Below, one piece after another: positions 4,080-25,222 of a DNA stretch of 26,660 nucleotides. Position 1 is the stretch's first letter, and every line of letters begins with the position of its first letter. Origin of the DNA: Victivallales bacterium (GTDB lineage Bacteria; Verrucomicrobiota; Lentisphaeria; Oligosphaerales; Oligosphaeraceae); contig JAGCSE010000070.1 of NCBI GenBank assembly GCA_017964325.1, positions 1-26,660 of the forward strand, written 5' to 3'. A program made the position numbers and the translations under genes. The notes beneath the pieces were generated by a model. That model made no database searches and had not been told where the DNA came from. It saw only the letters and a list, made by a program, of their open reading frames with translations.

Positions 4080-4529
4080 ATGAAAGCAAGATTGTTCATT
4101 TTAGTATGTTTGTTGCTGGCTCTCCACTCCAGCCTCAAGGCTGGAGAGGATGCTATGCGCGCTGACGACGCGACATTGTCACGTTCGTCAGAAAAATTCG
4201 CATACGACATCCTCAACGTGACAGAAAGCGACAACTTTGAAAGCGAATGCAAGGATAACGATGAAGATAAGCCATTCGGTTTATCTGACGAGTGCCTCAG
4301 AAAGGTCGGGCAGCCCACACCGGGAATCATGCTTACCTTGCTTATGGCTGGAGGCCTTGTTCGTCTCATGCTTCGCCTGAGACGTCGCATCACAAAGAGA
4401 TTGGAATGGCTGTTTGCCAACGCCCTTTCTTTCATGTTCGCAAATGAAAACAACTACGCTTTGTCTTTATACAATTTATTTATAGAAATTTGCTGGTTAA
4501 AATGGCAACGGGTTGAACTTCGATTATGA
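4080..4529 (+). CDS. Small secreted protein with a GQPTPG sorting-type motif
   Basis: The 149-residue protein begins with a signal peptide (basic start, hydrophobic core to about residue 21, A-G cleavage region). Residues 22-76 are hydrophilic and acidic with two cysteines and resemble nothing I know. GQPTPG at 77-82 is followed by a hydrophobic stretch with GG (83-95) and a basic cluster, RLRRR-ITKR, at 99-107. This is the same tag as at the C-termini of the two following genes. Unlike theirs, the protein continues for about 42 residues, including a second hydrophobic segment near 127-141. No strong ribosome-binding site is visible. A short hairpin (4542-4556) follows the stop. I infer it is a substrate or accessory of the exosortase encoded at 9138. 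Confidence 0.65.
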   Translation: MKARLFILVCLLLALHSSLKAGEDAMRADDATLSRSSEKFAYDILNVTESDNFESECKDNDEDKPFGLSDECLRKVGQPTPGIMLTLLMAGGLVRLMLRLRRRITKRLEWLFANALSFMFANENNYALSLYNLFIEICWLKWQRVELRL

Positions 4530-4668
4530 CCCGTTCGACGCCTGCGGTAGCCGCAGAGCGTCTCTGTTGTTTTGTCGAAACATTTCGGCAATCCCGAAAC
4601 TATCATTTACAGTATTCGGGGAAATCAATATATTTAAGGTTTAAGAAATTTAAATTGAGAGATTTACA

Positions 4669-5580
4669 ATGAAAAAATATATTTTGACTGCTTTTATTAT
4701 TATTGTATGCGTGCTGAATGTGCAAGCACAAACAATTAAACCAGGCAATGCATGGCCATCGAAGAATGGGAGAACATCTACTAATCCCGATGAAGTTGCT
4801 GGGCAATTGTATCACGCGGTAGGCGCTGAAAAAATTGATGGAACAGGTAATGTAACAGGTAATGTAGAATTTAATTATACATGGTCAGCAGGCCGCAATG
4901 CTCCAGAGAACCAAATGTGGTCATACGAACGCACTGACATTGACGCAGGATGGAGATACGAAGGTGGCACGTTCGAATTCACGTCAGACTATGTCTGGAC
5001 GGATTTTGGAACTAGACTGGATGATCATAAAGGTGATCCGGGCACCATTACCGAATTTGGTTATTATAAAATCAACACTGATGGAACGATCGGTGTTCCC
5101 ACAGCAATGATGGAATTGGATGCTGATGGAAACAAGATTGTGAATAATTCCGTGATTTTCAAAGAAGGCGATAAAATAGGTTTTTATATGGAAATCGCTG
5201 AAACAAACGGTAACAATGTCATTTTCACGTCCACTGAAAATGCCATTGAGGGTGCGGCAAAAGCCGCTCCGAATGTCGATACTGATTCCAGAGGCGATGA
5301 AAAACAGTATTTCTGTCTTTTCGATGCTAGACCTGGCAAACCAGGAATTGCTAGTGCCAGTCATTACGAATACTTTCTGGATGGATTTCTCGCCAAAAAA
5401 GATGATCAGACCTATGAGCAATTCATTGATGAGGTTATAGAACAGAATGGAGGAAACACCAACATTACGGATAGCGATGGCAATGCAGTCGGCGGCCAGC
5501 CGCTTCCTGGGCTTTTGCTGACGATGGTCATCGGCGGTACTGCGGTCGCAGGAATTGCCAAGAAGCGCAAGAAAGCATGA
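4669..5580 (+). CDS. Secreted exosortase substrate with C-terminal GGQPLPG signal
   Basis: This 303-residue protein has a clear signal peptide with likely cleavage after VQA (residue 20). Its C-terminus has the three parts of an exosortase sorting signal: motif GGQPLPG (275-281), a hydrophobic segment (about 281-296), and the basic tail KKRKK (298-302). The middle (about 95-240) is beta-rich and aligns with the next protein over conserved blocks: TSDYVWTDF, EFGYYKI, EGDKIGFY, a Thr-rich strand followed by AIEGA, and YEYFLDG. A low-complexity linker rich in N, G and D precedes the tag. It should be exported by Sec and processed at the tag by the exosortase. The function of the folded domain is unknown. 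Only a weak Shine-Dalgarno (GAGAG) precedes the ATG. Confidence 0.85.
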   Translation: MKKYILTAFIIIVCVLNVQAQTIKPGNAWPSKNGRTSTNPDEVAGQLYHAVGAEKIDGTGNVTGNVEFNYTWSAGRNAPENQMWSYERTDIDAGWRYEGGTFEFTSDYVWTDFGTRLDDHKGDPGTITEFGYYKINTDGTIGVPTAMMELDADGNKIVNNSVIFKEGDKIGFYMEIAETNGNNVIFTSTENAIEGAAKAAPNVDTDSRGDEKQYFCLFDARPGKPGIASASHYEYFLDGFLAKKDDQTYEQFIDEVIEQNGGNTNITDSDGNAVGGQPLPGLLLTMVIGGTAVAGIAKKRKKA

Positions 5581-5713
5581 TGGTGATTCGGTATTCTTGG
5601 GAGTTTCATTTAGAAATCGATTGACGCAATTATCGAGATTATCGAGCATTTTGTTTTGTTGATCGCTGTCAACGATTTCAGAGTCAAGATTCCCAAGAAA
5701 AAAAAATTGTTAA

Positions 5714-5733
5714 CCACCGCCAAAAGGCGGTGG
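5714..5733. terminator. Perfect 8-bp hairpin between the two paralogous substrate genes
   Basis: CCACCGCC and GGCGGTGG flank an AAAA loop, 134 bases after the stop at 5580. An A-run precedes it, so as an intrinsic terminator it would work best for leftward transcription. For rightward transcription only a weak T-rich tail follows. Confidence 0.5.
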
Positions 5734-5859
5734 ATTGATTGTTCCGCTTTGTGCGGCGAACATTCAGCCCCCTTCGTTCAATATGTTTTCTGTAACTGCC
5801 AATCTTTGACAGTTTCTTCAACAAAGTTCTAGTTTTATCCATAGGAAATTAAGATAATT

Positions 5860-6549
5860 ATGAAAAAGTCTTTTTATTTTTTATTTTTTGTATTTTCTCT
5901 TTTGTCGGCATCCGTAATGGCTCAAGCCCATTATGAAAATGATTTATTTGAATTTAGTCAAGGTGCCTTCACTTTCAAAACCGACTATGTATTGACGGAT
6001 TTTGCGGTAAGGGTTGCTTCTATGCAAAATGAAAACATTTTAGACATCAACAATCTGTCTGAAATTGGTTTTTATAAAATTTCATCTATGTCTGGCCACT
6101 CGACAACATTGGATGGAGAGCCTGTGTGGATGCGCAGAAATGATGGCGAAAATATTACGACCAATGAGCAAGTAACTTTCCATCAAGGGGATAAAATTGG
6201 TATCTATGTAAAAACAAGCACCTATGTACAAAAAGAGAACGGTAAATTCGAACTCGTAAAGGATGCACAGACATTTACTACTACAGATGGTGCTATAGAC
6301 GGCGCGAACTCCTTCAAAAATAACCAAAGACCAGAGAATGAAGATGGATTAGTGTATTTCTCCCTTTATCTCGATAACAATGACATTAAGCAGCCAACTT
6401 ACCAATATGCCTTGAATGGAGAAGCCAGCAGCGGTGGGGATGGAGGAACCTTCGGTGGTCAACCACTTCCGGGTATTTTGCTGACCTTGGCGATTGGTGG
6501 CACGGCGATTGCAGGTGTGACTAAAAGGCGGAAAAAATCAAAAGCATGA
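5860..6549 (+). CDS. Second secreted exosortase substrate with C-terminal GGQPLPG signal
   Basis: The 229-residue protein has a signal peptide with likely cleavage near VMA-QA (residue 21). Its C-terminal tag is almost identical to that of the previous gene: GGQPLPG (199-205), a hydrophobic segment with GG (205-220), and the tail KRRKKSK (222-228). The body (about 36-187) is a shorter version of the same domain, with TDYVLTDF, EIGFYKI, QGDKIGIY, TTDGAIDGA and YQYALNG. A Gly/Ser-rich linker (about 188-198) joins body and tag. The two genes are therefore a tandem duplication that diverged in the body more than in the tag, consistent with selection for recognition by one processing enzyme. A weak AGGAAA lies upstream of the ATG. 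Confidence 0.85.
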   Translation: MKKSFYFLFFVFSLLSASVMAQAHYENDLFEFSQGAFTFKTDYVLTDFAVRVASMQNENILDINNLSEIGFYKISSMSGHSTTLDGEPVWMRRNDGENITTNEQVTFHQGDKIGIYVKTSTYVQKENGKFELVKDAQTFTTTDGAIDGANSFKNNQRPENEDGLVYFSLYLDNNDIKQPTYQYALNGEASSGGDGGTFGGQPLPGILLTLAIGGTAIAGVTKRRKKSKA

Positions 6550-6867
6550 TAGTATAATTATAACGCTCTGTTCTACAAGCGGATAGGTTACGGAAACCAC
6601 AGAACGGCATTGCACGGAGTGCGAAACCATGCCTCCCCTCAGGCAAGAGTCCGCAAGGATGCGCAACCTGCACCGGGATGGTTGCCATGAATCGCTCCGC
6701 AAGGGTGCCACTTATAAAGGATGACCGAACATAGCCTTATAGGGAATAGAGCGAATTATAATATAATGTGCAAAATAAATAGCCTCAGTGTGTGCAAAAC
6801 AATATCTGAGGCTATTTATTAATTATATACGGCTGACAATTAGCATTTGAACAACAAAGGAGTGGAG
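6550..6867. other. Gene-free stretch with potential RNA structure before the exosortase operon
   Basis: There is no convincing coding region. Between 6600 and 6720 there are several short complementary blocks (AACCAT near 6625 with ATGGTT at 6678-6683; TGCCT at 6630 with AGGCA at 6641). The motif TCCGCAAGG occurs twice, at 6650-6658 and 6696-6704. The end of the stretch holds a long perfect hairpin, listed separately. It could be a structured 3' UTR, a leader or a small RNA; I recognise no family. Confidence 0.4.
6774..6820. terminator. 15-bp perfect inverted repeat ahead of the TPR-exosortase operon
   Basis: AATAAATAGCCTCAG at 6774-6788 and its exact complement at 6806-6820 flank a 17-base loop. 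The right arm ends in TATTTATT with more A/T after it, so it can act as a bidirectional terminator closing the substrate genes. It sits 48 bases before the ATG of the TPR gene, so an operator role is also possible. Confidence 0.55.
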
Positions 6868-9141
6868 ATGGAAAAGAACCGAAGACAAAGAATTCTGATA
6901 CTGATTTTGCTCTTTCTTGTGCTTCTGGGGGTTGGGGTGTCAGTCGCTTATTATATTGTGAGGGCACGGGAGAATGTTACGGCCATGCAGAATGCCCTTA
7001 ATGCCTATGAGAACAAGGATTTTGACAAAGCTATAGAGCTCTTCAACAAGGTTCTATCGAAGGATGCGGACAACGAGGCGGCAGTTACCAAACTAGCGGA
7101 AATATATTGTGCTATTGGAAACTGGCCCAAAAGTTCTGCATATTGGATGCAGGCCTGCCGCTTGAACAATCTGAACAATGATTATGAACGGAATTTTGTC
7201 AATATGGCCATGCGGGCGAGATCCTTTGCCAGAGTGGCATCCCTTTATACTGACAGCAGACATAAAAATCTTGATCTTGATGAACAGCTTGTTCTTGATT
7301 TCTGCCAACTGATGTCCAATGAGCCTCAAAAAGGCATTGAACTTTGGAATAAAATTATCCAGGAAAATCCCAAAGCGCTTGAAAGACCATATGGGAAATT
7401 GATCAAGGTAACGCATTTTGCAGCGGATCAGACATTTGAGTGGGTTTTTAAAGAGCTGGGTGAACTTGCATCTTCAGAGGACGCGAACATTGCTCAGGAG
7501 GCAATAATAGCGCGAGCAAATCTTAACAGGAGGCTTCGTCAGTATGCAAGCGAACTAGAGGATCTTACGAAACTTGCAGATATCAATTTCTTTGTCGGCG
7601 CGCCAATGCTCGGTGAGTTCTACAGCAACCATTTAAAGTTTGTGGAAGCCATTGATGTATTTGAAAAATACAATCAAAAGTATGTCAATAGCAATATAGC
7701 GATAATCTTGAGCGAGCTGTTGCTCTTCACCAATCAGAATGAGAAACTTGAAAAACTAACCAAAGATTGGAAGCGTCTGTCAGGAAAGAACAACATTATG
7801 ACGGCATATTACCTTGAGTCAGTTTATGCACTTGCCAAGAAAGATTTCAATGCCCTAGCCAAAGCCTACAAACCAGTGCAAACGCAAGGTCAAGTGAACA
7901 CGGTTCTAGCTGCGTTTATTTCAATACTGGTTGATGTCCATAACAATGACACCATCAGCCTTGAGAAGGATCTGCTCCACTTCCAAAACTTTCCCCCGTT
8001 CTTAGACTTTCGCACCAAAATACATACGCTTGTCGTGCTCTACCTTCAAGATAGGATAAAGGCTGGAGTGCCTGCAAAGGAATTAATCAGTCTTGCTGAC
8101 GCCCTTCTCAATGCAAAGCTAACTGATGATCCCACCGCCATGCCGATACTTGTCAGCCTAATTGGCAAACTCCAGAATTTCTCATTGACGGACTGGGAGC
8201 TAGAGTCGAACATGAAATTGCTTCCAAACGATCCAACTTACCTGGAAGTGGCTGTTGTTTTCAACTACACAAGGAAAAACATAGCGGAGGCAATCAAATA
8301 TCTTAATCAACTTGAGAAGATAGAGAAAAATGGAATTTCTCTTAACATGAAGAAGCTTGCAGTCGATTTATATATCGCTCAAGGAAACCTTGACGAGGCC
8401 GCCGCAAGATTCATGCAGGTTCTTGATTCTGAAAGAACTATCAGTTCTTTCTCAAAATTCTTCCTGTTCTGCTTTGGCAATAAACGCAAGGACGATATTA
8501 AGAAGCTTGCCGAAAAGACAGGAGACGACAAAGAACTAGAGCCAGTAAAGCTTTTCTGCAAGGCAGGGCTTGAACTGTTGGATGGTTCCAAGGATGCTGC
8601 GCTTGATATGATTGAAAAAATAGACACGGATGATGACGACTTGCTTTGTTTTGCCGGAGTGGAATTGGATGCCAACGGACGAAAAGACAAGGCTGTTGAA
8701 AAGTTCGAAAAGGTTTCACAGAACTTTGCAGGATATCCTCAGGTGCTTATGAAATTGTCCAGTTTGTATATGGATAAAGGCGATAATGCCAAGGCAAAAT
8801 CGTTTGCTGAAAAGGCATTAAGACTTGTGCCTGATGCAGGAATGCCCAAAAAGATTCTCGCTTCGTGCTTCCACACCGAAGGCAATTGGCAGCAAGCTCT
8901 TGATTATTCCGAACCCGCGCTCTGGGAGAAAAACGGAGATGTTGATTTGAAAAAAATCTGGATTTGGGCTATGGAGAAGAACATTGCTTTTGAATTTGAC
9001 GCAAAACGCTATCCTTCTTCAATGAATCTCTGCAATGCGCTCTTAAAATATGACAAAGCCAACGAGGTGGCGACAGATTATTCGGCGAAGCTTAAAAGTG
9101 TGATGCCGCCACAAGAAGAAGACAAGCCGGAGGCAGAATGA
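6868..9141 (+). CDS. Membrane-anchored TPR protein, first gene of the exosortase operon
   Basis: This 757-residue protein has a basic N-terminus (MEKNRRQR) and one membrane segment (about residues 9-31). A long helical region with tetratricopeptide-type repeats follows, clear at about 37-95 (ALNAYENKDFDKAIELFNKVL, then a W-P-K-S-S helix) and again at 600-690. It ends in an acidic tail. TPR proteins such as PrsT accompany exosortases in PEP-CTERM systems, where they are thought to help substrate handling or export; assigning that role here rests on the operon. The ATG at 6868 is chosen for AAAGGAG five bases upstream; TTG at 6847 and GTG at 6862 are weaker options. Its stop overlaps the exosortase start (ATGA at 9138-9141), indicating coupled translation. 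Confidence 0.85.
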   Translation: MEKNRRQRILILILLFLVLLGVGVSVAYYIVRARENVTAMQNALNAYENKDFDKAIELFNKVLSKDADNEAAVTKLAEIYCAIGNWPKSSAYWMQACRLNNLNNDYERNFVNMAMRARSFARVASLYTDSRHKNLDLDEQLVLDFCQLMSNEPQKGIELWNKIIQENPKALERPYGKLIKVTHFAADQTFEWVFKELGELASSEDANIAQEAIIARANLNRRLRQYASELEDLTKLADINFFVGAPMLGEFYSNHLKFVEAIDVFEKYNQKYVNSNIAIILSELLLFTNQNEKLEKLTKDWKRLSGKNNIMTAYYLESVYALAKKDFNALAKAYKPVQTQGQVNTVLAAFISILVDVHNNDTISLEKDLLHFQNFPPFLDFRTKIHTLVVLYLQDRIKAGVPAKELISLADALLNAKLTDDPTAMPILVSLIGKLQNFSLTDWELESNMKLLPNDPTYLEVAVVFNYTRKNIAEAIKYLNQLEKIEKNGISLNMKKLAVDLYIAQGNLDEAAARFMQVLDSERTISSFSKFFLFCFGNKRKDDIKKLAEKTGDDKELEPVKLFCKAGLELLDGSKDAALDMIEKIDTDDDDLLCFAGVELDANGRKDKAVEKFEKVSQNFAGYPQVLMKLSSLYMDKGDNAKAKSFAEKALRLVPDAGMPKKILASCFHTEGNWQQALDYSEPALWEKNGDVDLKKIWIWAMEKNIAFEFDAKRYPSSMNLCNALLKYDKANEVATDYSAKLKSVMPPQEEDKPEAE

Positions 9142-10010
9142 GTGTCTCCATGCCAGTCTCTGCGAGATTGAGGTTTAGCATTGCGACTTATATTGCGCTT
9201 GCTATTGCCTTCACATTCTCGCTGCGCACGACTTGGAATGAAATCTTCTCGCGCGAATGGGAAACGCCTGTCGTTTTTTTCATTCTTGGGTTATGGCTCT
9301 CATACGACGTATGCCACAAGATATATGTCCGCCCTTCTGGACCGCGTGGCGTACAAGATTCAGTCGCCGCATGGAGCGTGCTGATTCTGTTTTTTCTAAT
9401 GGCGCTTGCACCATTGAACATCGACGTCACCTGGTGCCAATGCTGGTGCCTATGGCTCTTATTGATAGCCCCGCTGTGGTTTTCATCAGGGCACAGAGTG
9501 ACATTGTTTGCAACGATACCGCTTTTCGTATTCTGTGTATTGATTCCAATGCACAACGAGATATTGCTTGCGGTTAGTCATCCTCTAAGGATGATTGCGA
9601 CCGCAACCTCTGGATTGATTCTAAAGTTGTTTGGATTCAATGTTTCAACCACGTTGACTGTACTGAAACTGAAAAACGTGGATTTGGCTGTGACGGACGC
9701 ATGCAGCGGCATACAGCAGTTTGAAGCACTGCTTTTACTCGGTTACATCCTTGCCAAACACCAGCAGAAGCATCTCGTATGGCGCATCGTGCATTATTCA
9801 TTTTGCATACCTTCGGTCATATTGGCAAATACAATCAGGCTAGTTTTGGTAGTGATGCTGTTCCACTGGCCAGTTGGCGAAGCCGTACTGTACTCTGGCT
9901 GGCATGAAGGCCTAGGCTATTTCCAAGTACTGTTAGCGGTAATGATAATGTGGGCCGCCGGTGCGCTCCTGACATACGCCAGCAAACCATTGAGAGAGAA
10001 GGAAAAATGA
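9138..10010 (+). CDS. Exosortase (transpeptidase-like sorting enzyme)
   Basis: This 290-residue polytopic inner-membrane protein has about eight hydrophobic segments. The three catalytic residues of the exosortase/archaeosortase family are in order and in their usual contexts: Cys189 in TDACSGIQQ, Arg234 in NTIRL, and His256 in WHEGLGY. The cysteine attacks the sorting motif of C-terminally tagged proteins and releases or transfers them at the periplasmic face. The length matches exosortases without a fused EpsI domain, and such a domain is supplied by the next gene, which overlaps by four bases. The three proteins with GQPxPG tags encoded upstream are the obvious substrates. I cannot assign it to a named exosortase subtype. 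Confidence 0.93.
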   Translation: MSVSMPVSARLRFSIATYIALAIAFTFSLRTTWNEIFSREWETPVVFFILGLWLSYDVCHKIYVRPSGPRGVQDSVAAWSVLILFFLMALAPLNIDVTWCQCWCLWLLLIAPLWFSSGHRVTLFATIPLFVFCVLIPMHNEILLAVSHPLRMIATATSGLILKLFGFNVSTTLTVLKLKNVDLAVTDACSGIQQFEALLLLGYILAKHQQKHLVWRIVHYSFCIPSVILANTIRLVLVVMLFHWPVGEAVLYSGWHEGLGYFQVLLAVMIMWAAGALLTYASKPLREKEK

Positions 10011-11101
10011 AGGATAAAAAATTTCTTCTTTATATCTTTGCATTTCTTGGTTGCATTCCGCTTGTGTTGTGCGTGCCATACATTCTTAACGCATGGCGTT
10101 TTTCCCCAATGGACAAGCGAGATTTTGTATTCGCCATAGCCTTCTTGCTGTCTGCACTAGTAGCCCTTGTCTTTACAGGACATTCAACGCCTGTCTTCCA
10201 AAAGCGAATACTCCTTGCAGATATTTGTTTTCTATGCGGATATGTTTTTTGTCGTGTAATAAGCTTAAATTCAGGAGCGGTTATATGCGCGATAATGTTC
10301 TGGTGGGTTCACATTTGGATGCTGCGCGGAATCAGGCTCGCTTTCAATCTCCTGCCCTCGTTTATTATACTTCTTCTATCAGTCGTAAGCAGCGTTTACT
10401 GGATGTGCGTTTTTTGGGGGATTACTCCGACAACTGCATTCTGGTTAAAGATTTTTGTAATGGTTCTTCTTCTAGTTTCTGAAATTCTTATACTGCGCTA
10501 CGCTTGGCTACCCAAAATAGGCATCATTATATTCAGCATGGGAATGACCGCTGCCACGGCAGTAATGTTCATGCTTGGAAATATAACGAAAACCTATGCA
10601 TCCTGCAAGGTGGCTTTCCAGCCAGTGGTGGGAAAATACATGGGTATAGAAATGGACAAGAACAAGAGTTTTGAGCGCTTCTTCAAGTATAGCGAAGCGC
10701 ATCATTACAAATACTCAATGGATACTGCTGATTTCACGTTGTTGACCGTAGATTGTCATGATAATATACACGAGATACATCCAGCCTCTCATTGCCTAAG
10801 GTCATCAGGATGGGCAATTGAGTCCGAAAAATCAATTCAAATCACAATCGACGAAAAGATACTCAACGTCACTGAGGTCAAGGCATCACGGCATAACTCG
10901 AAAATACTCCTCTGGGTCTGGTATAGCAATCATAATATCTCGACAGGCAATTTCATTTGTTTCCGCCGTTTATGGAAGAACCGCGAAATGTGGTCGTCTT
11001 ATCAGCTTGGCATATTGGACAAACAAGATTTAGATGAGAGCCGAAGCCTACTTAAGGATATATTGACCACATTAATGGTAAAACAGTCTTCCCCTGAATG
11101 A
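10007..11101 (+). CDS. Exosortase-associated membrane protein with EpsI-like C-terminal domain
   Basis: The 364-residue protein has about six hydrophobic segments in the first 190 residues and a soluble C-terminal domain (about 195-364). That domain carries HPASHCLRSSGW at 258-269, which corresponds to the H-x-P...C-L...G-W signature of the EpsI/exosortase C-terminal domain (DUF3485 type). In other systems EpsI is either fused to the exosortase or encoded beside it. Here it is fused to its own membrane region, so the exosortase and EpsI functions form two membrane proteins. The start is set by the ATGA overlap with the exosortase gene; an upstream in-frame extension to 9950 would lie inside the exosortase and is unlikely. 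It is the last gene of the operon. Confidence 0.82.
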   Translation: MKDKKFLLYIFAFLGCIPLVLCVPYILNAWRFSPMDKRDFVFAIAFLLSALVALVFTGHSTPVFQKRILLADICFLCGYVFCRVISLNSGAVICAIMFWWVHIWMLRGIRLAFNLLPSFIILLLSVVSSVYWMCVFWGITPTTAFWLKIFVMVLLLVSEILILRYAWLPKIGIIIFSMGMTAATAVMFMLGNITKTYASCKVAFQPVVGKYMGIEMDKNKSFERFFKYSEAHHYKYSMDTADFTLLTVDCHDNIHEIHPASHCLRSSGWAIESEKSIQITIDEKILNVTEVKASRHNSKILLWVWYSNHNISTGNFICFRRLWKNREMWSSYQLGILDKQDLDESRSLLKDILTTLMVKQSSPE

Positions 11102-13784: not shown

Positions 13785-13957
13785 AATCCTCTTCCAACCA
13801 TGTTTTTCATTAAGCACTTATTAAAATAGGGAGTCTATGCAATGCCTGTCAACCTAGTACTTTATTGATTAAGGCAAATGATATGCTACCCTTTTGGGGA
13901 GGCTCTCTTAATAACGATTTTTCATCAAGAATATTATACAGACAAGGAATCAAAACC

Positions 13958-16900
13958 ATGGCCGTCGACCTATCCAAAGTCAACATTTCCCTTGACCAGT
14001 TCCAGAACATCGCATCCGGCAAATACAATGCAGGCGAAGTGTCGCTCACCAGCGAAACCACCCTCGGCAAAATCAACCACCACGTTCACAAGGTTCGTGC
14101 CAATACGAAGTCACTCACCCATGAGGAGGTACTCGCCATCAAGAACGCGCTTGTGAAGGCGCTTTCAGAACACGGTGTGCAGCAAGAGGAAATCAACCGC
14201 ATCCGACGCGAACTCGGACTCGGGGCGGATACCGGCATCGACAAGACGCTCCACGAGCGTAGCCTCAAGCCGCTCACGCGTCAGCAGGTGCGCCAGATTC
14301 TTGACCGAAACGCAGCAACGATAAATTCGTTCAAGGGGAACAATGCGGACAGAGTGTACATCACCACGTCATCCTTGCTTTACGGCGCGAATGGAATGGA
14401 CGCTGAACACGCCGAAAGGCGCGACGAGATCAACGCCGCGCTCGCAGGTTCGCGCAAGACGGAGGCACACCAGGGGCTGGCCGTAGCAGAGGCCATCATC
14501 GCGGGCGATGTGGATTTCCACTCAGCAGAGAAAAACAAGGAGATTCTCGCCCATGTCAAAAACATGCACAAAAGACTGCTTGACGAGACGAACGGCAATC
14601 CCAGTGCGGAGCGCGAGGCGGTGGTCCATTTCCGCATGAAAGATAGCGGCCAGGAGATGAGCATCTCCACTGGCATGAGCGAGCTGGCATTCATCCGCAA
14701 GCTTGAAGGAATCATCATACGTCTTTCCGAAGACAAGAATGCGGATGCACGGAGCGTCGATGTCCGCACGGCGTTCAGCGCGCTCAGTACCCCTGCGGCA
14801 CGCCTTGATTGGCTCAACAGCCTTGCGGGCACGCCCGACGCAGGCTTCAAGGTTCGCACAGCCTTCATCCAGATGCTGACGGAAGCGGGAATAGACGACT
14901 GGGAAACCCTCTCCGTGATCAACCGTGTCAACGACGAGGACGCGCTTGCCGCCGCCCGAAGCCTTGTAGCGCTCAACGGGCGGCTCAGAGGCGATGCGCT
15001 GCGGCAAGACCATATGCTGGTGGCGCTTTCGCATCTGGCCGAGAACGCAGTTGATGTTCCCGAAAACTCACGCGCCCTTGTCCCCGCCACCTCTCCATAC
15101 CAGTGGAACAAGACGATAAGGGACGCCTTCAGAAGCGGCGCAATCGAAAAGCTCCCAAATGAGTTCAAGGTGCTACTGGACACTGTCCCTGCCCATCTCA
15201 GAGAGATGTTCGGAACTGAGATTGTCGGGAAAAATGCCAAGGCCATAGATTTTATCGTCTTCTCCGGCACCGCCGATGCCCTTCTGCCTGACCTCAACGC
15301 GGCACCTGCGACGGCGGAAAGCCTCCGTGCATCCTTGATGACCGCTATGGAACGCTACACAGCTCAAAGATGCGCCTGCAACCATCTCGAAAATAAGCTG
15401 ATGGCCGCGGGAGTTGGCGAGGGGTTCAGCACCATGCTCTGGACCGCCTGGGACACCACCCGTCCGCAACTAAAGGAACGCCTTCTTGCATCGCGTTCCG
15501 CTGCGGAAACCGCCCAAATCCTCGCCGAGGTTCGCAAAGACGTCGAGGGTGACGTAAAACGCCTCGTGACCGCCGAACGTTGCTCCAACAAGGTCACCGC
15601 CCTCTACAAGGAGACGCTCGCACGGGAACTGGGCGTGCCTTCTTCATGTTTTACGGGTGGCAAGCCTGATATGACCATCATTTCCCTCAAGGCAAGCAAT
15701 ATGGTTTCCGCTATCCTCAAAGGGGAGATTGCGGTTTCCACCGAGGCAGACATCGAGGCTGTCTTCCGAAACTACGCACTGGACACAGCCAAGAAACGTG
15801 CCGAGGTCATCCGTACCGTGGATAAGATGGGACTGCCTGAAGCGCTCAGCATGGACTTAAAGACCAAGCTCTTCAAGATGACCCGCGTGGACAAGCTTGA
15901 TGTCCCCAAGACCCTTGAGGCCGCCCGCAACGCCTTCAGCGCGAAAATCGATGCCCTGTACGCCGCGCTCAAGCCAAACGCCTCCAAGGAAGCAGTCTAT
16001 GCAGCAATGCATCAAATCACGGGGCCTTTGGGAGAGGTCGTGCAAAGCCTGCTTCCAGAAGGAGCCGAAATGGGCGTTGAAGAAACAGACGCTCAAGGCG
16101 ACATAATGATGTCATTTATCGTATATTCCAAAGAGGGGTTGCGTGAGAAACTCCTATCCTTCTTCAATCGTGCAGACGTCAAGGCTGACACATACTACGA
16201 CCCCCAATCCCCCGCCTACGTTTCCGCTCCCATAATCGTTAAACTGAATGAACAGCTTACCAATGAAGCCATAGTCTCCACGCTTGGAAAGCCCCAAATG
16301 CCCCCCTTCCATGCAAAGGCTTTGATGCAGGCGTTCGAGGATGCGGGGCTCGGTGCAAAGTCCCTCGCCGAAAAGATGGCAATCCTGCGTCCGACTCACC
16401 CGGCGGGCATGATGCTTTCCTCCTCCATTCGCGCCCAGTCAGAGGGCATCTCGCCGAGCAAACTGCGTGAAATCGCCGAGCCTATCCTCATGGCGTTCGG
16501 CAATGCGGACGCCGAACGCAGCGAGGAGGACACCGAACGGATGAACGCGCTCCTCGCCAAATACAACGGCGGCCTCTCCGAGGCAGAACGCGCCCGCCTC
16601 CACGAGTTCGCCGAGGAACTCGACTTCTCCGAAGAAGCCGCGCCTGCCAGCGAAAAGGTTCTCGCAGAGCGGCTGGACGAAATCTGCGGCGGCGGCGGCT
16701 TCAACAACCCTGCCTCGTCCGTCTCACGCCGTGCGCTGGCTTCGGGCTTCAAGCTCGCCGACCTGCCTGCGCTCGCCCGCATGGAAGAAATACTCGACTT
16801 CCATGAAAACGACCCCGCCGAGGCCATCCTCGACCCGCAGAGCGAGTTCCGTCGCAACTGGGACGCATGCATGCTTCGCTACGCTGGCACCCGCGCGAAC

Positions 16901-18562
16901 CTGGACCGTGTCCCTGAAAGCGTGAAAATCGCCATCACCAAAGCCCTCACCGCCTGCAAGCATGATGCCGAACTCCTCACCCTCGTCACAAATGGAATCA
17001 ATCGCATAGTCAGAAACGGGGCAAATGCGCTTCGGAACGAGGACGACATCAAGGAAGCCGTTGAGCGCGTCCGCGCCAACCTCCAGGAACTTCGCGAAGC
17101 CACGGCGGACAATCCCGCGCTCTTAGCTGCCGGCCAGGAAATGCTCCTTGGCCTTGAAGCGCGCCGTGTGCCAAATGGCTTCATAAAGCACCTGATTGAC
17201 ACCGTGAAGCAAATCCAACTCAACGCCGTCCTGAAGCTGCGCGCACGCTCATCTGCAAAGGATATCCATGCCGCGCTCATGCAAATCTACGAAAACGTTT
17301 CCGCAATCCTCGTAAGCGGCAACTCCGAAGGGCTATTTGAAGGTGATGACGAAGTGGCCCCCTGCCGCAATTTCCTTGTCAAGGCAATGGTCTCGCGCCT
17401 CGACCAGAGGACACGCGGCCGTATCCGCGATGCCCTTGCATCGGAAAATTCCTCAAAACTCATGGCGTTCTATTACATGATTGAGAATGGAAAACTTGAG
17501 CTCGAAACACTCCCGGAGGGCGTCAAGGGGAATTTGGAGGGCCTCAGTGCCAAACTATCCACCTACGCCGATCACCTCAATGAGGCTGTTCACCAGGCAC
17601 TTGGCGAAGAAAACGCGATCATCCCCAAATTCAATGGAGTATTCGACCTCAATATATACAATGAAATTAAGGGACCAGACATCCTTGGGGAAATCAAAAC
17701 AACCGCTCGCACCGAATGCGATAAAGCCTGCGACAACTTCCTGAAGAAGAATTTCCCTGGCAATTCTCCAGTAGCCACCGCGCTACGCAACCTCTACAGC
17801 GCCAAACTCACCATCACCAAACCGTTCGCACCTGACGTACAACTCTCCCAAGACTACTCATTTGCCACCAAGCATTTCCTCAACCTCAACATTGTCCGCA
17901 GCATGAAGTGGCTTGAGACGACAGGGCTGGAACAATCGCAGTTCGCAAAGGACCGTGACCGCGGCTTTGACGTTTTCCTGCCTAATGGACAACTACTATC
18001 CCAAGACCCCGCCACCGCGGCAGATGAGCTTTCACGCTTCGTCACTGGACGAGAAGATGCGACCTATGCGGCACTTGGGAAGGCGGAGAAGACCAAGGTC
18101 CACTTCGTGATGTCGATCCTCACGCAGGAAGCGAACACGGCAACAATCACTGGTGCAGGTTTCGCACTAGATCCACAAGGCAAGAACCAGATGTTCGAGT
18201 ACGGAGGCAACGGGCAAGGGGTTTCACGCTCTTTCCATCTGTCCAAGCTTTCTGGACAAGGCGACATTGCAATCGACTTTGAGACAACGCTCAGGCCGAA
18301 CATCCTGATTGTCAACGGTGACCTCATTCCATTCCAAGGCAACGAAATCAAAGGCGACTTCAACCTGATTCTCTCCCCTGAGTTTCTCGACGATATCAGC
18401 AATCTGGACTTCGCACAATGCGACAATACCGCCTCCAATGAGATCTACAACCGCCAGCAGCCTGTTGAGAACAAACTCAAATCCAGCGTGGGGGCCCTCC
18501 CCCTCCCCTTCCAGCTCAATATCAGGCCCCAAACATCGTTCGCCTTTAACTTGAACCAGTAA
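13958..18562 (+). CDS. Giant helical protein, putative type III secreted effector
   Basis: This 1534-residue protein has no signal peptide, membrane segment or recognisable enzyme motif. The N-terminus (MAVDLSKVNISLDQFQ) is polar, amphipathic and rich in S, N, D and K, as in many type III secretion signals. Residues 40 to about 1300 are predominantly helical and rich in Ala, Glu, Arg and Leu. An internal repeat is suggested by KIDALYAAL...ASKEAVYAAMHQ (about 663-690) and LNAVLKL...SSAKDIHAALMQ (about 1088-1113). The last 160 residues switch to a Gly/Asn/Phe-rich, beta-like domain. ATG 13958 is preferred because AAGGA precedes it by nine bases; a TTG at 13865 would add 31 residues without a ribosome-binding site. 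The effector call is inferred from the similarly sized, chaperone-flanked protein on the other strand; no chaperone adjoins this gene. Confidence 0.6.
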   Translation: MAVDLSKVNISLDQFQNIASGKYNAGEVSLTSETTLGKINHHVHKVRANTKSLTHEEVLAIKNALVKALSEHGVQQEEINRIRRELGLGADTGIDKTLHERSLKPLTRQQVRQILDRNAATINSFKGNNADRVYITTSSLLYGANGMDAEHAERRDEINAALAGSRKTEAHQGLAVAEAIIAGDVDFHSAEKNKEILAHVKNMHKRLLDETNGNPSAEREAVVHFRMKDSGQEMSISTGMSELAFIRKLEGIIIRLSEDKNADARSVDVRTAFSALSTPAARLDWLNSLAGTPDAGFKVRTAFIQMLTEAGIDDWETLSVINRVNDEDALAAARSLVALNGRLRGDALRQDHMLVALSHLAENAVDVPENSRALVPATSPYQWNKTIRDAFRSGAIEKLPNEFKVLLDTVPAHLREMFGTEIVGKNAKAIDFIVFSGTADALLPDLNAAPATAESLRASLMTAMERYTAQRCACNHLENKLMAAGVGEGFSTMLWTAWDTTRPQLKERLLASRSAAETAQILAEVRKDVEGDVKRLVTAERCSNKVTALYKETLARELGVPSSCFTGGKPDMTIISLKASNMVSAILKGEIAVSTEADIEAVFRNYALDTAKKRAEVIRTVDKMGLPEALSMDLKTKLFKMTRVDKLDVPKTLEAARNAFSAKIDALYAALKPNASKEAVYAAMHQITGPLGEVVQSLLPEGAEMGVEETDAQGDIMMSFIVYSKEGLREKLLSFFNRADVKADTYYDPQSPAYVSAPIIVKLNEQLTNEAIVSTLGKPQMPPFHAKALMQAFEDAGLGAKSLAEKMAILRPTHPAGMMLSSSIRAQSEGISPSKLREIAEPILMAFGNADAERSEEDTERMNALLAKYNGGLSEAERARLHEFAEELDFSEEAAPASEKVLAERLDEICGGGGFNNPASSVSRRALASGFKLADLPALARMEEILDFHENDPAEAILDPQSEFRRNWDACMLRYAGTRANLDRVPESVKIAITKALTACKHDAELLTLVTNGINRIVRNGANALRNEDDIKEAVERVRANLQELREATADNPALLAAGQEMLLGLEARRVPNGFIKHLIDTVKQIQLNAVLKLRARSSAKDIHAALMQIYENVSAILVSGNSEGLFEGDDEVAPCRNFLVKAMVSRLDQRTRGRIRDALASENSSKLMAFYYMIENGKLELETLPEGVKGNLEGLSAKLSTYADHLNEAVHQALGEENAIIPKFNGVFDLNIYNEIKGPDILGEIKTTARTECDKACDNFLKKNFPGNSPVATALRNLYSAKLTITKPFAPDVQLSQDYSFATKHFLNLNIVRSMKWLETTGLEQSQFAKDRDRGFDVFLPNGQLLSQDPATAADELSRFVTGREDATYAALGKAEKTKVHFVMSILTQEANTATITGAGFALDPQGKNQMFEYGGNGQGVSRSFHLSKLSGQGDIAIDFETTLRPNILIVNGDLIPFQGNEIKGDFNLILSPEFLDDISNLDFAQCDNTASNEIYNRQQPVENKLKSSVGALPLPFQLNIRPQTSFAFNLNQ

Positions 18563-20181: not shown

Positions 20182-20571
20182 TCAGACGGACAATTTTTCC
20201 CTCAAGGAAAGAAGTGCCGTCATGAATGCCTCAAGTCTGGAGACGAGGATTTCCGCCGTCAGCAAATCAAGGGGCAGATACATTGAGAGCGCCAGGGAGT
20301 TCTCCTCTTCATCCAGCGAAATGGTGGCTCCATTCGTGGCTTCCAGATGATGGTTTGCCTCCAGGGCGGCAACAAGCACATTCCCGTCGTCTGAAGGCAA
20401 ATCCATGATCTTTGCCGTAATGAGCACCATCTCTCCTGCATCAGGGCAGTACAAGAGCGAGACTTCCGCTTCTTCGGATGCGATAACGCAAGCCCCCTCG
20501 GCATCTGGCTCGAAGCCCTCGATGCCGAGGAGTTTTCCCGTCTCTGATATGATGTCAGTGAATGATAGCAT
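20182..20571 (-). CDS. CesT-like type III secretion chaperone, downstream of the giant gene
   Basis: The 129-residue acidic protein has the layout of class I (CesT/Tir family) chaperones. It has an N-terminal helix (LSFTDIISETGKLLGI), strands with SLLYCPDAGEMVLITAKI at 38-55, a helix LVAALEANHHLEA at 66-78, the hallmark TNGATISLDEEE at 79-90, a strand LALSMYLPLDLL, and a long C-terminal helix ending in LREKL. Such chaperones bind the N-terminal part of an effector as dimers and keep it export-competent. The ATG at 20571 is 10 bases past the stop of the giant gene, so they are cotranscribed; a TTG at 20580 is an alternative start. It probably serves the adjacent giant protein. Confidence 0.8.
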   Translation of the reverse strand: MLSFTDIISETGKLLGIEGFEPDAEGACVIASEEAEVSLLYCPDAGEMVLITAKIMDLPSDDGNVLVAALEANHHLEATNGATISLDEEENSLALSMYLPLDLLTAEILVSRLEAFMTALLSLREKLSV

Positions 20572-20581
20572 CTTGAGCAAT

Positions 20582-23500
20582 TCAAATATTCTTTTCTAAG
20601 GATTTCAAAACAGGCAGCACATTTGCCTTCCAGCCCTTGTCCGCATTGACCTCGTCAATGAAATCAATCGTGACCTTTTGGAAGGTGTTGTGCAGCGCCT
20701 CAGGCGTGGCATTGTGCTGGCGACAATTGGAAAGACACATGCCGAGTGCCACTTTGTAGCAGTCGGAAATACGGTTCAGCTCTTTGTTCAATGCCTCGCG
20801 CTTCTTTTCAGGCACCTTCTCGTGCGACATCACATCAATGAAACCATTCTTGAAATATTCGTTTGCCTTCGCTTCGCTAATGACGCTCTTGATGAGATGG
20901 CGCTCCAGCGTATGGGTGAAATCGGCCACCAAGGTGGGGCTTTCCTTCTCCAGATTATAGCGGTTTATGCAATCCTCCACGGCTATCAGCGTATCAACGA
21001 TGATCTTCATGCGGACGGTCTCTTCATCCAGCCCCTTGATGGCCTGCTTCAAGTTATCCAGGCCGTCCTTGGTATCGTAGTCGCCCAACACGCTCGAAAT
21101 CTTGAGGGAAATGGCGCTTTCCAGATCTTTGTAATTCTTTTTGACCGTCTCCTGCAGGTAGGTTGGCAAAGTGGCGAACCTGGGGTCTTTCGGATTGAAC
21201 ATGATGGCCTCGTCCTTGGCGGCAAGTTCATCAAGCATGGCATTCAGAAACTTGGTCTTGACCTCAGCGAGAAGCATCTCCGTTCCCTCCTTGTCAATGA
21301 GATAATCAATTTCTTTGATGAACGCAGGCGTGAGGATGGGCTCGTTTTCGCCTCCCTTGAGTGCATTCTCCTGCAGAATCTTGACACGTTCGTCGAATTT
21401 CGCCATTATGCGCTCTTCCGCGGTGGTTTTGCGATAGTCCTCGAATCTGGAGAGGCCGTGCGAATCCAGCCATTTGCTGAAAGCCGTGCGCACTTCGCCC
21501 ACCTTCTCGTTGTCGAAGACGGAATAGAGCAACTGTGCAGTATGCCCTCTGAGCAGGTCGCGGGCAGCAAAGCGGAAATCAGCCACAGCATTGCGAGGTC
21601 CATTGGGCTTGCTAGGTCCAATGGGTGCAAAGTCTTCGGGATGCTCCTTCAAGGCAGGACCATATTCCATGATTTGGTCAAGCATCGCCTTTTCCGCCTC
21701 GGCGCGCAGCTTGTGGCCTTCGGGCGATTTAAGCCAGGTCTTGAGGTCATTCATAGCGGCTTCCGTCTCGACCTTGTCCTCCAGCAGCACATCCGCGCCT
21801 GCCTGCTTGATCAAGCCAACCAGAGCTTTCGGCAAATGATAATCGGTTGCGTTGAACACATTCTGCGTCACATAGACGAAGTTAAGCATAAGCTCCTTGT
21901 CCCGCGCATCCAGCTTGTCCTCCGTGAAATTGTCCGGATTCTGGTAGATCTGGTATTCGATGCGCTGCTTCATCTTCGGGATGATGACATCCTCCATATA
22001 TTTCTGCGCTTCAGGGGTGGCAGAGAGGCCAATCGCTTTCTTGGCTATATCAAGGGTATCTCCCAACTCTTCCATGGCGTTTTCATAGACGGCAGTGACC
22101 TTCGTCATATATTCGTCGAATTTGGTCTTGGCGTTGCTGATTTTGCCGTCCAGATGATCCTGCAGAAGCTTATGGTAGTAGCCCAGCGCCACCTTCATAT
22201 CCAGCTCGTTGAAATCCTTGCGGTTGGCAAGTTCAACCAGTGCCCACTGGCGGGCGTCCTCAAGGGTCTTGACACCAAGGCTGGAGAAGTCAGCGTCAAT
22301 CGGGCCGGTCTGACGTATGAAATCCGTGCGGAATTTCGCCCATTTCTTGGCAAAGCTCTGCGCCGCCTTGTCCACCTCTTCGGCAAGGCGCTTCACAAGG
22401 GCCTCCTTGTCGCCTGTGGCATAGATCAGAGGCATCTTCTTGACGCGCTCGATGACAGTGTTAGTTGCCTTTGAAATCAGGATTTCCCCCTCTGAATAGG
22501 GGCCCTTATAGACATTCTCCAAAACGCCTCCCTTGCCAAACACCTTGCCTTCAAGGACAGACTGCTTGATCTTGTCCAGACTATTCTTGTCGGCCAGGAA
22601 GTCCTTGACCATCTGCTCACGGTCATCCGCCACAATGCCGATGACAAGGGTGGTTTTCTCGGGGCCATCGTCACGAATGGTCAAGGTGCCCAAGTTCTCA
22701 ATGGCTTTCTTGTCGAAGCTACCAGGGGCGTCCAGTATCTCCAGGATGTTTGACTTGAGCTGAGAGGCCTTGGCGCGCAAGACCTCGTCAGTCAGCTCCT
22801 TCGCCAGCTTTTTCGTCTCGCTCTCAGTGATGGGCTTGTCGCCTTCATTGTATCCCCTGAATGAGCCGCGGCCCCCTTCGATATTGGTAGTCAACATATT
22901 GTTGAGCTGATCGTTGCACTGCTTTATGTAGTTCTCCTCATGTTGGGCGATCTTCTTCACAAGGGACATGACCTTGGAGTTGAACTCTTCCTTCACCTTT
23001 TTCACAAAATCTTCCGTGACGGTGAGATGTCCATCCACCTTGGGGAGCTTCTTCAGCATGGTGGCCAGTGTCGTGGAGTAGAGGCGTTTCAGTTCGCCAG
23101 CCTGCAGCGTGGCCCTGGCGTCTTTCTCGGTGATGATGCCATCCACGCCGAGTTTCACTTGATTCATGCCCGGCTGTGACATTGCCTCGTGGACGAGCCC
23201 CATGACATCCCTTAGGACGCCTTTTTCCTGTACGCCTATGGCTCTGCCAAGGGAATTGAGCGCCAGGTCATTGTTGAGTTCGGAGATTGCCTCCTGAAGC
23301 TGCCCCTTGAAGATGCGGTCCAGAAGCTTCTTGCCTTCATTGGCGTCTGCAATGGGGGACTTCAGGAAGAAGCCCTTGAGAACCTCCTTGTGCGACTGGG
23401 CGAACTTGGAGTTTGCGTTCAGAATCATCGTCTCGCACGTATTTTGATCAATCAGCCCTTTCTTGAACTGGGTGCGCACCAGCTTCTCAAATCCCGTTTT

Positions 23501-25222
23501 CGCCTTGTTGATCGCCTTGCCCACATTCTTCTCGAATGAGAAATAGGCTTCAGCCGTGGCCCGAAGCAGTTCCTTGTCCTTTTCCTCGCTGGCCTTGTCT
23601 AGCTTCAGGTCCACCCCGAGATGATTCGCCACAATCGCCACCTTGCGGTTCGTCAGGTTGGCCATCGTGAAGGACATCAGCTTTGAGACCAACGTCATGT
23701 CCAGGCCGTCCTTGCCAGCCGCAATCTCGTTGATGGCATTTTCCATGTCATGGACATAGCCTTTCATGCCTTCGTCAACCTGCTCCTTCTTGCCAGTCTG
23801 GGGATTCTTCTTGACGGTGCCGTTCTGGATCTTAATGCCAAGGCCCAGCATATGTGTGTCCTTGTAAATGGCCTCCATGGTGTTGTGGTAGGCGTCGCCA
23901 AGCAGCTTGTTGTCCGCAACGGCTTCACCGATGCCGCGCTCCGCCAGGAAGTTCTTGGTGAAGGTGCCCAGAAGCCCCTCCGCCACGTATGCCTCCCTGG
24001 CCCCCTGGAGATCATCGTATATTCTCTTGCCTTCCTCCTGGGAGATGTTGGCATTTTCAATGAGTTTCACCGAATCCTTCTGCATGGCGCTAGTAATCGC
24101 TGTTTGGCGGGCTCCATTGACCATTTCCCTGCCATTCGCCACAACCTTGTCAAGCATAGCATCTCCTGTGCTCTTGATCTCATCTTTCGGCGGATTGTCA
24201 ATGAACTGCCTGGCACCTTTCATAAACTTCTCCGCCTCCTCCATGATGGCCTCGAAGGAGAAGTTGGCCTCCATCTGCAAGTTCATGTCGCCATTCTCGC
24301 CGTTGGACCATTCACGTATGTTCTCCACATTCTGCTTGAACAAAGCTGGCAGAACATCCTTCATGAACTTCTCGAAAACCATGCCGCCAGTGCCGACCAC
24401 ACCGCCTTCGCCCTGCTGGGGCACAAGTCCCTTGAGTATAAGGAAATGGAGGAGCGCACCGCGCAGCTGGCCCGTCTCCTCCTGCGAAAGGTGCAGGCCG
24501 AAGGTGTTGTCCAGGGCTTTTGGTCCCGTATAGAGATCAGCCTTGCCCTTCATCAGGTTCTCAATCTCAGCCCGTTTGACCGCCTCATCGCAAAGTTTTT
24601 CCAACTCGATCAGATAGGTCTTGAATGTCAGCTCGTCCATCTTGGGGACAAGGCTTGTCTTGTCGGGGTCATTTTCCCAAAGCTTGCTCAGGTCGCCCAG
24701 CTCTGGTGGAATTATCAAGTATTTTTTCTTCAAGACCTTGACGCAATCCTCCGTGCCATTCAGTTTGCAGCGTTCCGCCGTTTTCCTGAGCAGATTTTCC
24801 ACCATATTCATGCGTCCGATTGGGGTGTTCATCATCTTGTCGTATTCCTTGAAGGCCTTTTGCAGTTCCTTGCGCGAAAGGGCGTCCGTCCGCTTGCCTT
24901 CTGGATTTTTGGGAACATTGGTGATGCTGTCAACCAGTTTCTCGACAGTCTTAGGGTCTGCCCACCTCAAATCGTTGGCCATCGCCATGGCGAACTTCTC
25001 GCGCATGGTACGGTTGTTGGCCGCATTGATATTTGAACGCCATGATATGTTGAAATCAATATTGTTGTTGACCTTCGCAATCTTCACGCCGCCTTTGCCG
25101 TCTGGTACGAAGCGGACATAGCCTTTGTTCTTCGGATTCACTGTATTGACCGCCTTGCGAAAATCATCTATGCCGATATTTGCATACTTGGCCTGTTCAT
25201 TCGTTACTTTGCCTGTTGACAT
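20582..25222 (-). CDS. Giant helical protein flanked by two chaperones, putative type III effector
   Basis: This 1546-residue protein has no signal peptide and no membrane helix. It is almost entirely helical, rich in Lys, Glu, Ala, Leu and Asn, with no catalytic motif I recognise. The N-terminus (MSTGKVTNEQAKYANIG) is polar and disorder-prone, as in type III secretion signals, and residues 30-85 contain short strand-like segments that could bind a chaperone. A CesT-like gene ends 149 bases upstream and another begins just downstream, all on the same strand. The start at 25222 is supported by GGAG seven bases upstream. Effector identity is inferred from its neighbours, size and lack of another export signal. 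A structural (scaffold or fibre-like) protein is the main alternative. Confidence 0.72.
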   Translation of the reverse strand: MSTGKVTNEQAKYANIGIDDFRKAVNTVNPKNKGYVRFVPDGKGGVKIAKVNNNIDFNISWRSNINAANNRTMREKFAMAMANDLRWADPKTVEKLVDSITNVPKNPEGKRTDALSRKELQKAFKEYDKMMNTPIGRMNMVENLLRKTAERCKLNGTEDCVKVLKKKYLIIPPELGDLSKLWENDPDKTSLVPKMDELTFKTYLIELEKLCDEAVKRAEIENLMKGKADLYTGPKALDNTFGLHLSQEETGQLRGALLHFLILKGLVPQQGEGGVVGTGGMVFEKFMKDVLPALFKQNVENIREWSNGENGDMNLQMEANFSFEAIMEEAEKFMKGARQFIDNPPKDEIKSTGDAMLDKVVANGREMVNGARQTAITSAMQKDSVKLIENANISQEEGKRIYDDLQGAREAYVAEGLLGTFTKNFLAERGIGEAVADNKLLGDAYHNTMEAIYKDTHMLGLGIKIQNGTVKKNPQTGKKEQVDEGMKGYVHDMENAINEIAAGKDGLDMTLVSKLMSFTMANLTNRKVAIVANHLGVDLKLDKASEEKDKELLRATAEAYFSFEKNVGKAINKAKTGFEKLVRTQFKKGLIDQNTCETMILNANSKFAQSHKEVLKGFFLKSPIADANEGKKLLDRIFKGQLQEAISELNNDLALNSLGRAIGVQEKGVLRDVMGLVHEAMSQPGMNQVKLGVDGIITEKDARATLQAGELKRLYSTTLATMLKKLPKVDGHLTVTEDFVKKVKEEFNSKVMSLVKKIAQHEENYIKQCNDQLNNMLTTNIEGGRGSFRGYNEGDKPITESETKKLAKELTDEVLRAKASQLKSNILEILDAPGSFDKKAIENLGTLTIRDDGPEKTTLVIGIVADDREQMVKDFLADKNSLDKIKQSVLEGKVFGKGGVLENVYKGPYSEGEILISKATNTVIERVKKMPLIYATGDKEALVKRLAEEVDKAAQSFAKKWAKFRTDFIRQTGPIDADFSSLGVKTLEDARQWALVELANRKDFNELDMKVALGYYHKLLQDHLDGKISNAKTKFDEYMTKVTAVYENAMEELGDTLDIAKKAIGLSATPEAQKYMEDVIIPKMKQRIEYQIYQNPDNFTEDKLDARDKELMLNFVYVTQNVFNATDYHLPKALVGLIKQAGADVLLEDKVETEAAMNDLKTWLKSPEGHKLRAEAEKAMLDQIMEYGPALKEHPEDFAPIGPSKPNGPRNAVADFRFAARDLLRGHTAQLLYSVFDNEKVGEVRTAFSKWLDSHGLSRFEDYRKTTAEERIMAKFDERVKILQENALKGGENEPILTPAFIKEIDYLIDKEGTEMLLAEVKTKFLNAMLDELAAKDEAIMFNPKDPRFATLPTYLQETVKKNYKDLESAISLKISSVLGDYDTKDGLDNLKQAIKGLDEETVRMKIIVDTLIAVEDCINRYNLEKESPTLVADFTHTLERHLIKSVISEAKANEYFKNGFIDVMSHEKVPEKKREALNKELNRISDCYKVALGMCLSNCRQHNATPEALHNTFQKVTIDFIDEVNADKGWKANVLPVLKSLEKNI

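Follow-up and report, generated by a model that had tools for sequence, protein, structure and literature searches.

Archaeosortases and exosortases are thought to cleave their protein substrates at a sorting tag. PEP-CTERM, EpsH, EpsI and PrsT are described in PMC1569441. The window analyzed here, which is the whole 26,660 nucleotide stretch of contig JAGCSE010000070.1 from a Victivallales bacterium, displays a locus that resembles this arrangement. Genes for three tagged proteins (1, 2 and 3) are followed on the + strand by genes for a tetratricopeptide repeat (TPR) protein, an exosortase and a DUF3485/EpsI partner, in that order. The locus is very probably one copy of a distinct Lentisphaeria exosortase/tag system that acts on GQPxPG proteins, a function that we infer from the sequences. 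A description of the GQPxPG tag was not found in the literature searched, which left most subscription papers outside.

As in the PEP-CTERM/exosortase system (EpsH; XrtA and relatives), the enzyme is a multi-pass protein of the same Pfam family with Cys, Arg and His residues. The tag again consists of a short motif, a helix and a basic cluster, and a DUF3485/EpsI domain and a TPR protein are common to both (PMC1569441). Unlike PEP-CTERM, the tag core is GQPxPG, and none of the 43 tag-positive genomes of the class displays a PEP-CTERM match. The enzyme and the DUF3485 partner are encoded by separate genes here; in the PEP-CTERM kind they are separate or fused, according to PMC1569441. Also unlike the PEP-CTERM kind with PrsT, the gene immediately before that of the enzyme encodes the TPR protein, which is only weakly similar to PrsT (TIGR02917), at 70.5 bits, far under the cut-off of 312.2. 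The initial annotation stressed that the acidic residue of the P-E-P core is replaced. The GQPxPG core is confirmed, however the replacement is not unique to it. VPLPA-CTERM is a named tag family (TIGR03370) associated with XrtD and has a comparable P-L-P core.

Tagged protein 1 (positions 4080–4526, +) displays a hydrophobic N-terminus, a short linker, a GQPTPG tag, a hydrophobic helix, an Arg cluster and a conserved 47-residue tail. Its tag, VGQPTPGIMLTLLMAGG..., is internal to the chain and not C-terminal; counted from the first residue of GQP, 73 residues remain to the end, 47 of them past the first 26. Tagged protein 2 (4669–5577, +) has a domain predicted to be mostly beta-strand and ends with the tag GGQPLPGLLLTMVIGGTAVAGIAKKRKKA. 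Tagged protein 3 (5860–6546, +) is a shorter homologue of protein 2 (phmmer 69–70 bits) and ends with GGQPLPGILLTLAIGGTAIAGVTKRRKKSKA. The motif is GGQPLPG in both of these. The three neighboring proteins with GQPxPG followed by a hydrophobic helix and then a basic cluster, as originally noted, are thus all confirmed, and all three are putatively secreted, as judged from their hydrophobic N-termini and not by a signal-peptide program. Three of the 67 window open reading frames (ORFs; stop to stop, at least 100 aa) have GQPxPG in the last 80 residues. Residue shuffles (n = 2000) gave a mean of 0.0015 such ORFs and none reached three or more, thus the window tags exceed chance. The whole tagged proteins 1–3 show no match at E ≤ 1 to any CTERM family, PEP-CTERM (TIGR02595/PF07589) included. 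The tag is kept in 30 of the 32 homologues of protein 2 (protein 2 counted). Among 84 distinct tagged ORFs, gathered with a search pattern in which the G, the Q and both P were preset, the sequence is GQPLPG in 74, and 79 display a hydrophobic N-terminal stretch.

The exosortase gene (9138–10007, +) encodes a protein that is above the cut-offs of Pfam PF09721 (96.2 bits, cut-off 25.7) and TIGR04178 (42.9 bits, cut-off 23). A profile scan with curated cut-offs assigned it to no named NCBIfam exosortase subtype, in agreement with the initial annotation. The best named match is XrtV (NF035943), which covers nearly the full length but reaches only 72.1 of 313 bits; XrtA (TIGR03109) gives 60.7 of 208, XrtD (TIGR04152) 56.7 of 400 and XrtB 47.8 of 275 bits. 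The residues Cys189, Arg234 and His256, which we take to be catalytic, are kept in 83, 82 and 83 of 84 aligned exosortases, respectively. The exceptions are two sequences from PEP-CTERM genomes, L177 with gaps in this region and L183, which is divergent. The closest exosortases are those of L001, a Victivallales bacterium metagenome-assembled genome (MAG), with 84% identity, and L002, a Lentisphaeria bacterium MAG, with 74%. A contig scan gave 21 loci. Fifteen are titled with a taxon, in every case Lentisphaeria, Lentisphaerae, Victivallales, Victivallaceae or Victivallis, and six are titled "uncultured bacterium".

The TPR-exosortase-DUF3485 operon spans positions 6847–11098 and begins about 300 bases past the third tagged gene. 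An exosortase operon a few hundred bases downstream, with the triad intact, was therefore correctly described, but the TPR gene comes first in it, and about 2.6 kb lie between the third tagged gene and the start of the exosortase gene. The TPR protein (6847–9138, +) has 764 residues, with a hydrophobic stretch in its N-terminal part. The stop codon of the TPR gene and the exosortase start codon overlap as ATGA, and the exosortase stop overlaps the ATG of the partner in the same manner, thus translation of the three proteins is probably coupled. The partner (10007–11098, +; this start was chosen over an alternative GTG at 9950) is above the cut-off of PF11984 (DUF3485; 29.9 bits, cut-off 26.1) and below that of TIGR02914 (EpsI; 24.2 bits, cut-off 42.8). 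Its N-terminal part has nine predicted helices, about eight of which are membrane-spanning by our reading, and its DUF3485/EpsI domain holds a conserved His/Cys (NIHEIHPASHCLRSSGW). The helical part of the partner (window 10007–11098; L016 and relatives) resembles the N-terminal half of the exosortase itself, so that the partner looks like a fusion of a pseudo-exosortase with EpsI.

The distribution of the tag was followed with two profiles, A2 (12 tags, searched in six frames) and the wider A5 (28 tags). Tags of the same genome types served as seeds for both, so that matches arise partly by construction. Of the 20 genomes that contain the related loci, 16 have an A2 match, with a best E-value of 7e-6 or lower in each. 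The survey sample consists of 148 genomes from the class of G001, the genome of L001; the class name, Lentisphaeria, was read from titles. The samples for tag, PF09721 and PF07589 are taken as the same 148 genomes, as the handles agree. At E ≤ 0.01 for the A2 tag and E ≤ 0.001 for PF09721, the tag is present in 43 genomes and an exosortase in 75. The co-occurrence of tag and enzyme that the initial annotation proposed to test is seen: 41 of the 43 tag-positive genomes have an exosortase versus 34 of the 105 tag-negative genomes (Fisher p = 2.1e-13; this and the following p-value ignore shared ancestry). PEP-CTERM (PF07589) is found in 16 of the 148 genomes, none of them tag-positive. Among the 75 exosortase-positive genomes, 41 have the GQP tag, 15 have PEP-CTERM and none has both (p = 8e-7). 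In a sample of the phylum, A5 matches 48 of 288 genomes at E ≤ 0.01. The best E-value is at or below 1e-5 in 35 of these, and 33 of the 35 have an exosortase that is in, or matches, the clade described below (G277, with a very long branch, is among them), and the search found none in G181 and G295; in the remaining 13 genomes the best E-values are 4e-4 to 0.009. Victivallis vadensis DSM 14823, a cultured strain, also carries the tag, with one exosortase match and two recognized tags.

An exosortase tree was constructed from 84 sequences, the window enzyme and 83 others, which do not cover every PF09721 match of the class survey. Labeled by genome, 53 are GQP, 14 are PEP and 17 are neither; ten genomes are labeled GQP beyond the 43 of the class survey. 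The tree and a rerun are quick trees without bootstrap and with several long branches. The window enzyme falls in a clade of 62 sequences (SH-aLRT 100), of which 52 come from tag-positive genomes, ten from genomes with neither tag and none from PEP-CTERM genomes. The other side of this branch has 14 PEP sequences, seven with neither tag and a single GQP sequence, that of G024. With the sequences lacking either tag omitted, the GQP/PEP label requires one change on the tree, and the same is seen in the rerun. When 26 diverse members of the clade are scanned, many named subtype profiles match simultaneously (cut-offs were printed for the window protein only), and the XrtD profile matches all 26 at E ≤ 0.001. 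However the XrtD model is longer (486 positions), and the separate partner here matches it weakly (E = 0.047).

The G024 genome is outside of the 148-genome sample. It has one PEP-CTERM protein (PF07589, E = 3e-4) and the PEP-side exosortase, and a second exosortase was found with the clade profile (243 bits). This match spans one stop codon and the open frame is 312 residues. The second exosortase shares a contig with a GQPLPG tag and a TPR gene. Thus both tags and both enzyme types are present in one genome. For the rerun, the second G024 enzyme was added, the PEP-side enzyme was relabeled and two long sequences were dropped. The second enzyme is nearest to clade members (45% identity to L004), and no well-supported small set contains it.

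The initial annotation considered that another exosortase with PEP-CTERM substrates might account for the tagged proteins. A second exosortase is indeed present in each of the nearest-relative genomes, G001 and G002, but it belongs to the same GQP clade, and PF07589 is not matched in either genome. The tags display two corresponding flavors. Among the 32 homologues of protein 2, 16 have PG-T-L/M-A-T, 14 have PG followed by three bulky hydrophobic residues and S/T, and two are tag-less; the window tag belongs to the bulky hydrophobic set. Two of the G001 tags lie beside the window-type enzyme and resemble those of the window most closely; the remaining five are closest to the tags of G016, for which PF09721 gave the second enzyme type alone. 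G002 also has two tags next to its window-type enzyme, and these are closest to tags of G001 and the window, whereas a third is most like the tags of G317 and G332, which hold the relative of its second enzyme. By comparison of the 18 residues after the core, ten of the 11 tags of G001 and G002 have their nearest neighbor in a genome that holds the enzyme type expected. The joint distribution of clade and tag, together with the two flavors in two-enzyme genomes, suggests that the residues after PG probably give sub-specificity. A small system dedicated to this locus, as originally proposed, is not borne out, since the tag occurs in 43 genomes of the class, in V. vadensis and together with several exosortase lineages; dedicated pairing is retained at the level of tag flavor. 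On these sequence comparisons, a pairing of enzyme and tag that is set apart from that of PEP-CTERM extends through the class, with two versions present together in some genomes.

The gene neighborhood is also conserved. In 44 of the 62 clade loci the TPR gene immediately precedes that of the enzyme; the DUF3485 partner is downstream in 59, and 24 have a tagged gene within 6 kb on the same strand. L005 has a partner match as well, which was missed by the frame rule behind the count of 59, and several loci without one of the neighbors end close by. A rumen-type group of eleven loci has the exosortase and a partner match with no adjoining TPR gene, and in several of these genomes there are tagged genes on other contigs, near TPR-protein genes. 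The absence of polysaccharide genes noted in the initial annotation holds for the window, where family scans of the proteins named none. Six relatives' loci were ORF-listed and the three likely-looking ones (L003, L015 and L131; not L001, L019 or L112) were scanned. Beside the exosortase there are four glycosyltransferase genes in L003, one glycosyltransferase and one Polysacc_synt_3 protein in L015, and a bacterial sugar transferase in L131. Thus the absence in the window is not a rule of the family.

The enzyme system probably cuts and relocates secreted proteins that have a GQPLPG tail. Cleavage, membrane topology and an envelope role are carried over from the family, in part from PMC1569441 and PMC12188702. 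The N-terminal signals would export the tagged proteins, and the tag helix and basic cluster would then retain them in the inner membrane with the N-terminal domain outside. The Cys/Arg/His exosortase would recognize G-Q-P-x-P-G at the outer face and cleave there, by the chemistry of the family, after which the protein would probably be joined to an envelope component, or released. For the TPR protein and for the DUF3485/EpsI partner, overlap of their genes with that of the enzyme and synteny are observed, and these proteins would serve as cofactors of the enzyme or as a scaffold.

Several observations weigh against a distinct system of this kind. The class-survey counts were made without genome completeness values, and tag labels were assigned per genome. 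A tag without an exosortase, the case singled out beforehand as damaging, does occur, in G295 and G318 (2 of the 43 class genomes) and in G181 (by A5); three such contigs are 3.6 to 8.9 kb long. Conversely, 34 of the 75 exosortase-positive class genomes have no A2 tag, 15 of the 34 being PEP-CTERM-positive. Eight of the ten tag-less clade members are still empty at E ≤ 0.01 with the wider model, and the other two have weak tag matches (E = 0.0024 and 0.0094), both on the exosortase contig. When tag-less sequences are treated as a state, the GQP label changes nine times (seven in the rerun) versus a shuffled mean of 25.2 (about 25). The eleventh tag, the fourth of G002, has its closest counterpart in G181, for which the searches gave no enzyme, although the next nearest, from G332 and G317, fit. 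The flavor pattern is inseparable here from inheritance of whole cargo genes, and part of the likeness is whole-protein homology, thus the pattern is support and not proof. Looser cores also exist among profile matches outside of the pattern, i.e. GKPLPG, GTPLPG, GAPLPG, GEPLPG, GGPLP, GAPLPAP and EPLPAP.

The last point bears on whether the locus is an ordinary, slightly drifted PEP-CTERM/exosortase system without distinct specificity. The GEPLPG and EPLPAP variants and the matches to PF09721, TIGR04178 and DUF3485 are in keeping with it. Ten of 28 single tag peptides weakly match PEP_CTERM (TIGR02595; best E = 0.0039, given without bit scores or cut-offs), which suggests that GQP and PEP tags may share an origin; the VPLPA-CTERM model is matched by one of the 28 (E = 0.0048). 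However the three whole tagged proteins have no CTERM match, PEP-CTERM and GQP genomes are disjoint among the 148, and the enzymes separate in the tree, with G024 keeping both tags and two enzymes. Simple drift is unlikely on this evidence. Less probable still is that the tags are plain C-terminal membrane anchors held by the TPR and DUF3485 proteins, with an exosortase homologue that does not cleave. A helix and a basic cluster would be sufficient for anchoring, and no processing has been observed, which again counts against the sorting system proposed here. Against a plain anchor stand the conservation of G, Q and both P before the helix (partly a result of pattern selection), the conserved active site and the co-distribution of tag and enzyme.

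The tail of tagged protein 1 is an unexpected feature of the proposed sorting system. The protein and its relatives in L001, L002 and L003 share the lengths of 73 and 47 residues and the ending W-Q-x-x-x-L-R-L. Eight rumen-type loci have the same build, with 73–74 residues and a different tail end, PGPDLFC-x-RE. A tail of 47–48 residues is thus present in 12 of the 12 such proteins found (window, L001–L003 and the eight rumen-type loci). The two tail types may be compared by build, with no homology implied. In L055–L061 and L068 the tail ends with PGPDLFCQRE (PGPDLFCLRE in L055); in some loci these genes lie next to TPR-protein genes and on contigs other than that of the exosortase. For the final 38 codons, every one of the 28 pairs among the eight rumen-type proteins displays less nonsynonymous than synonymous change. 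The last 14 codons of the window and L001 differ by one synonymous change; there are more differences with L002. The DNA conservation between the window and L001 continues past the stop codon into a hairpin, thus RNA- or DNA-level selection may also contribute there. This region has two predicted hairpins (4508–4562, +), at and just past the stop of tagged gene 1, with z-scores of −2.3 in the window, −2.5 in L001, −4.2 in L002 and +0.7 in L003. The window hairpins have no Rfam match and are possibly a terminator or leader element. The tail is expected to be on the cytoplasmic side. It is conceivable, but doubtful, that tagged protein 1 is a reporter substrate and not cargo, with the helix-tail fragment, once freed by cleavage at GQPxPG, signaling that sorting works and so coupling cargo production to exosortase activity.

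Elsewhere in the window, two CesT-type chaperones (PF05932, E = 9e-16 and 5e-13) are encoded at 20182–20580 (−) and 25372–25812 (−). A protein of 1546 residues (20582–25222, −) adjoins both, and a second very large protein of 1565 residues (13865–18562, +) is encoded nearby; neither matches Pfam at E ≤ 0.01. The group resembles the chaperone/substrate pairs of type III secretion systems.

The GQPxPG locus extends the exosortase/archaeosortase superfamily by a sorting system, both tag and enzyme, that is spread through a class. The tailed protein is a possible link between sorting and regulation. To our knowledge, few rules of specificity are established for this superfamily. G001 and G002, with two clade lineages each, and G024, with GQP plus PEP, represent natural experiments in specificity.

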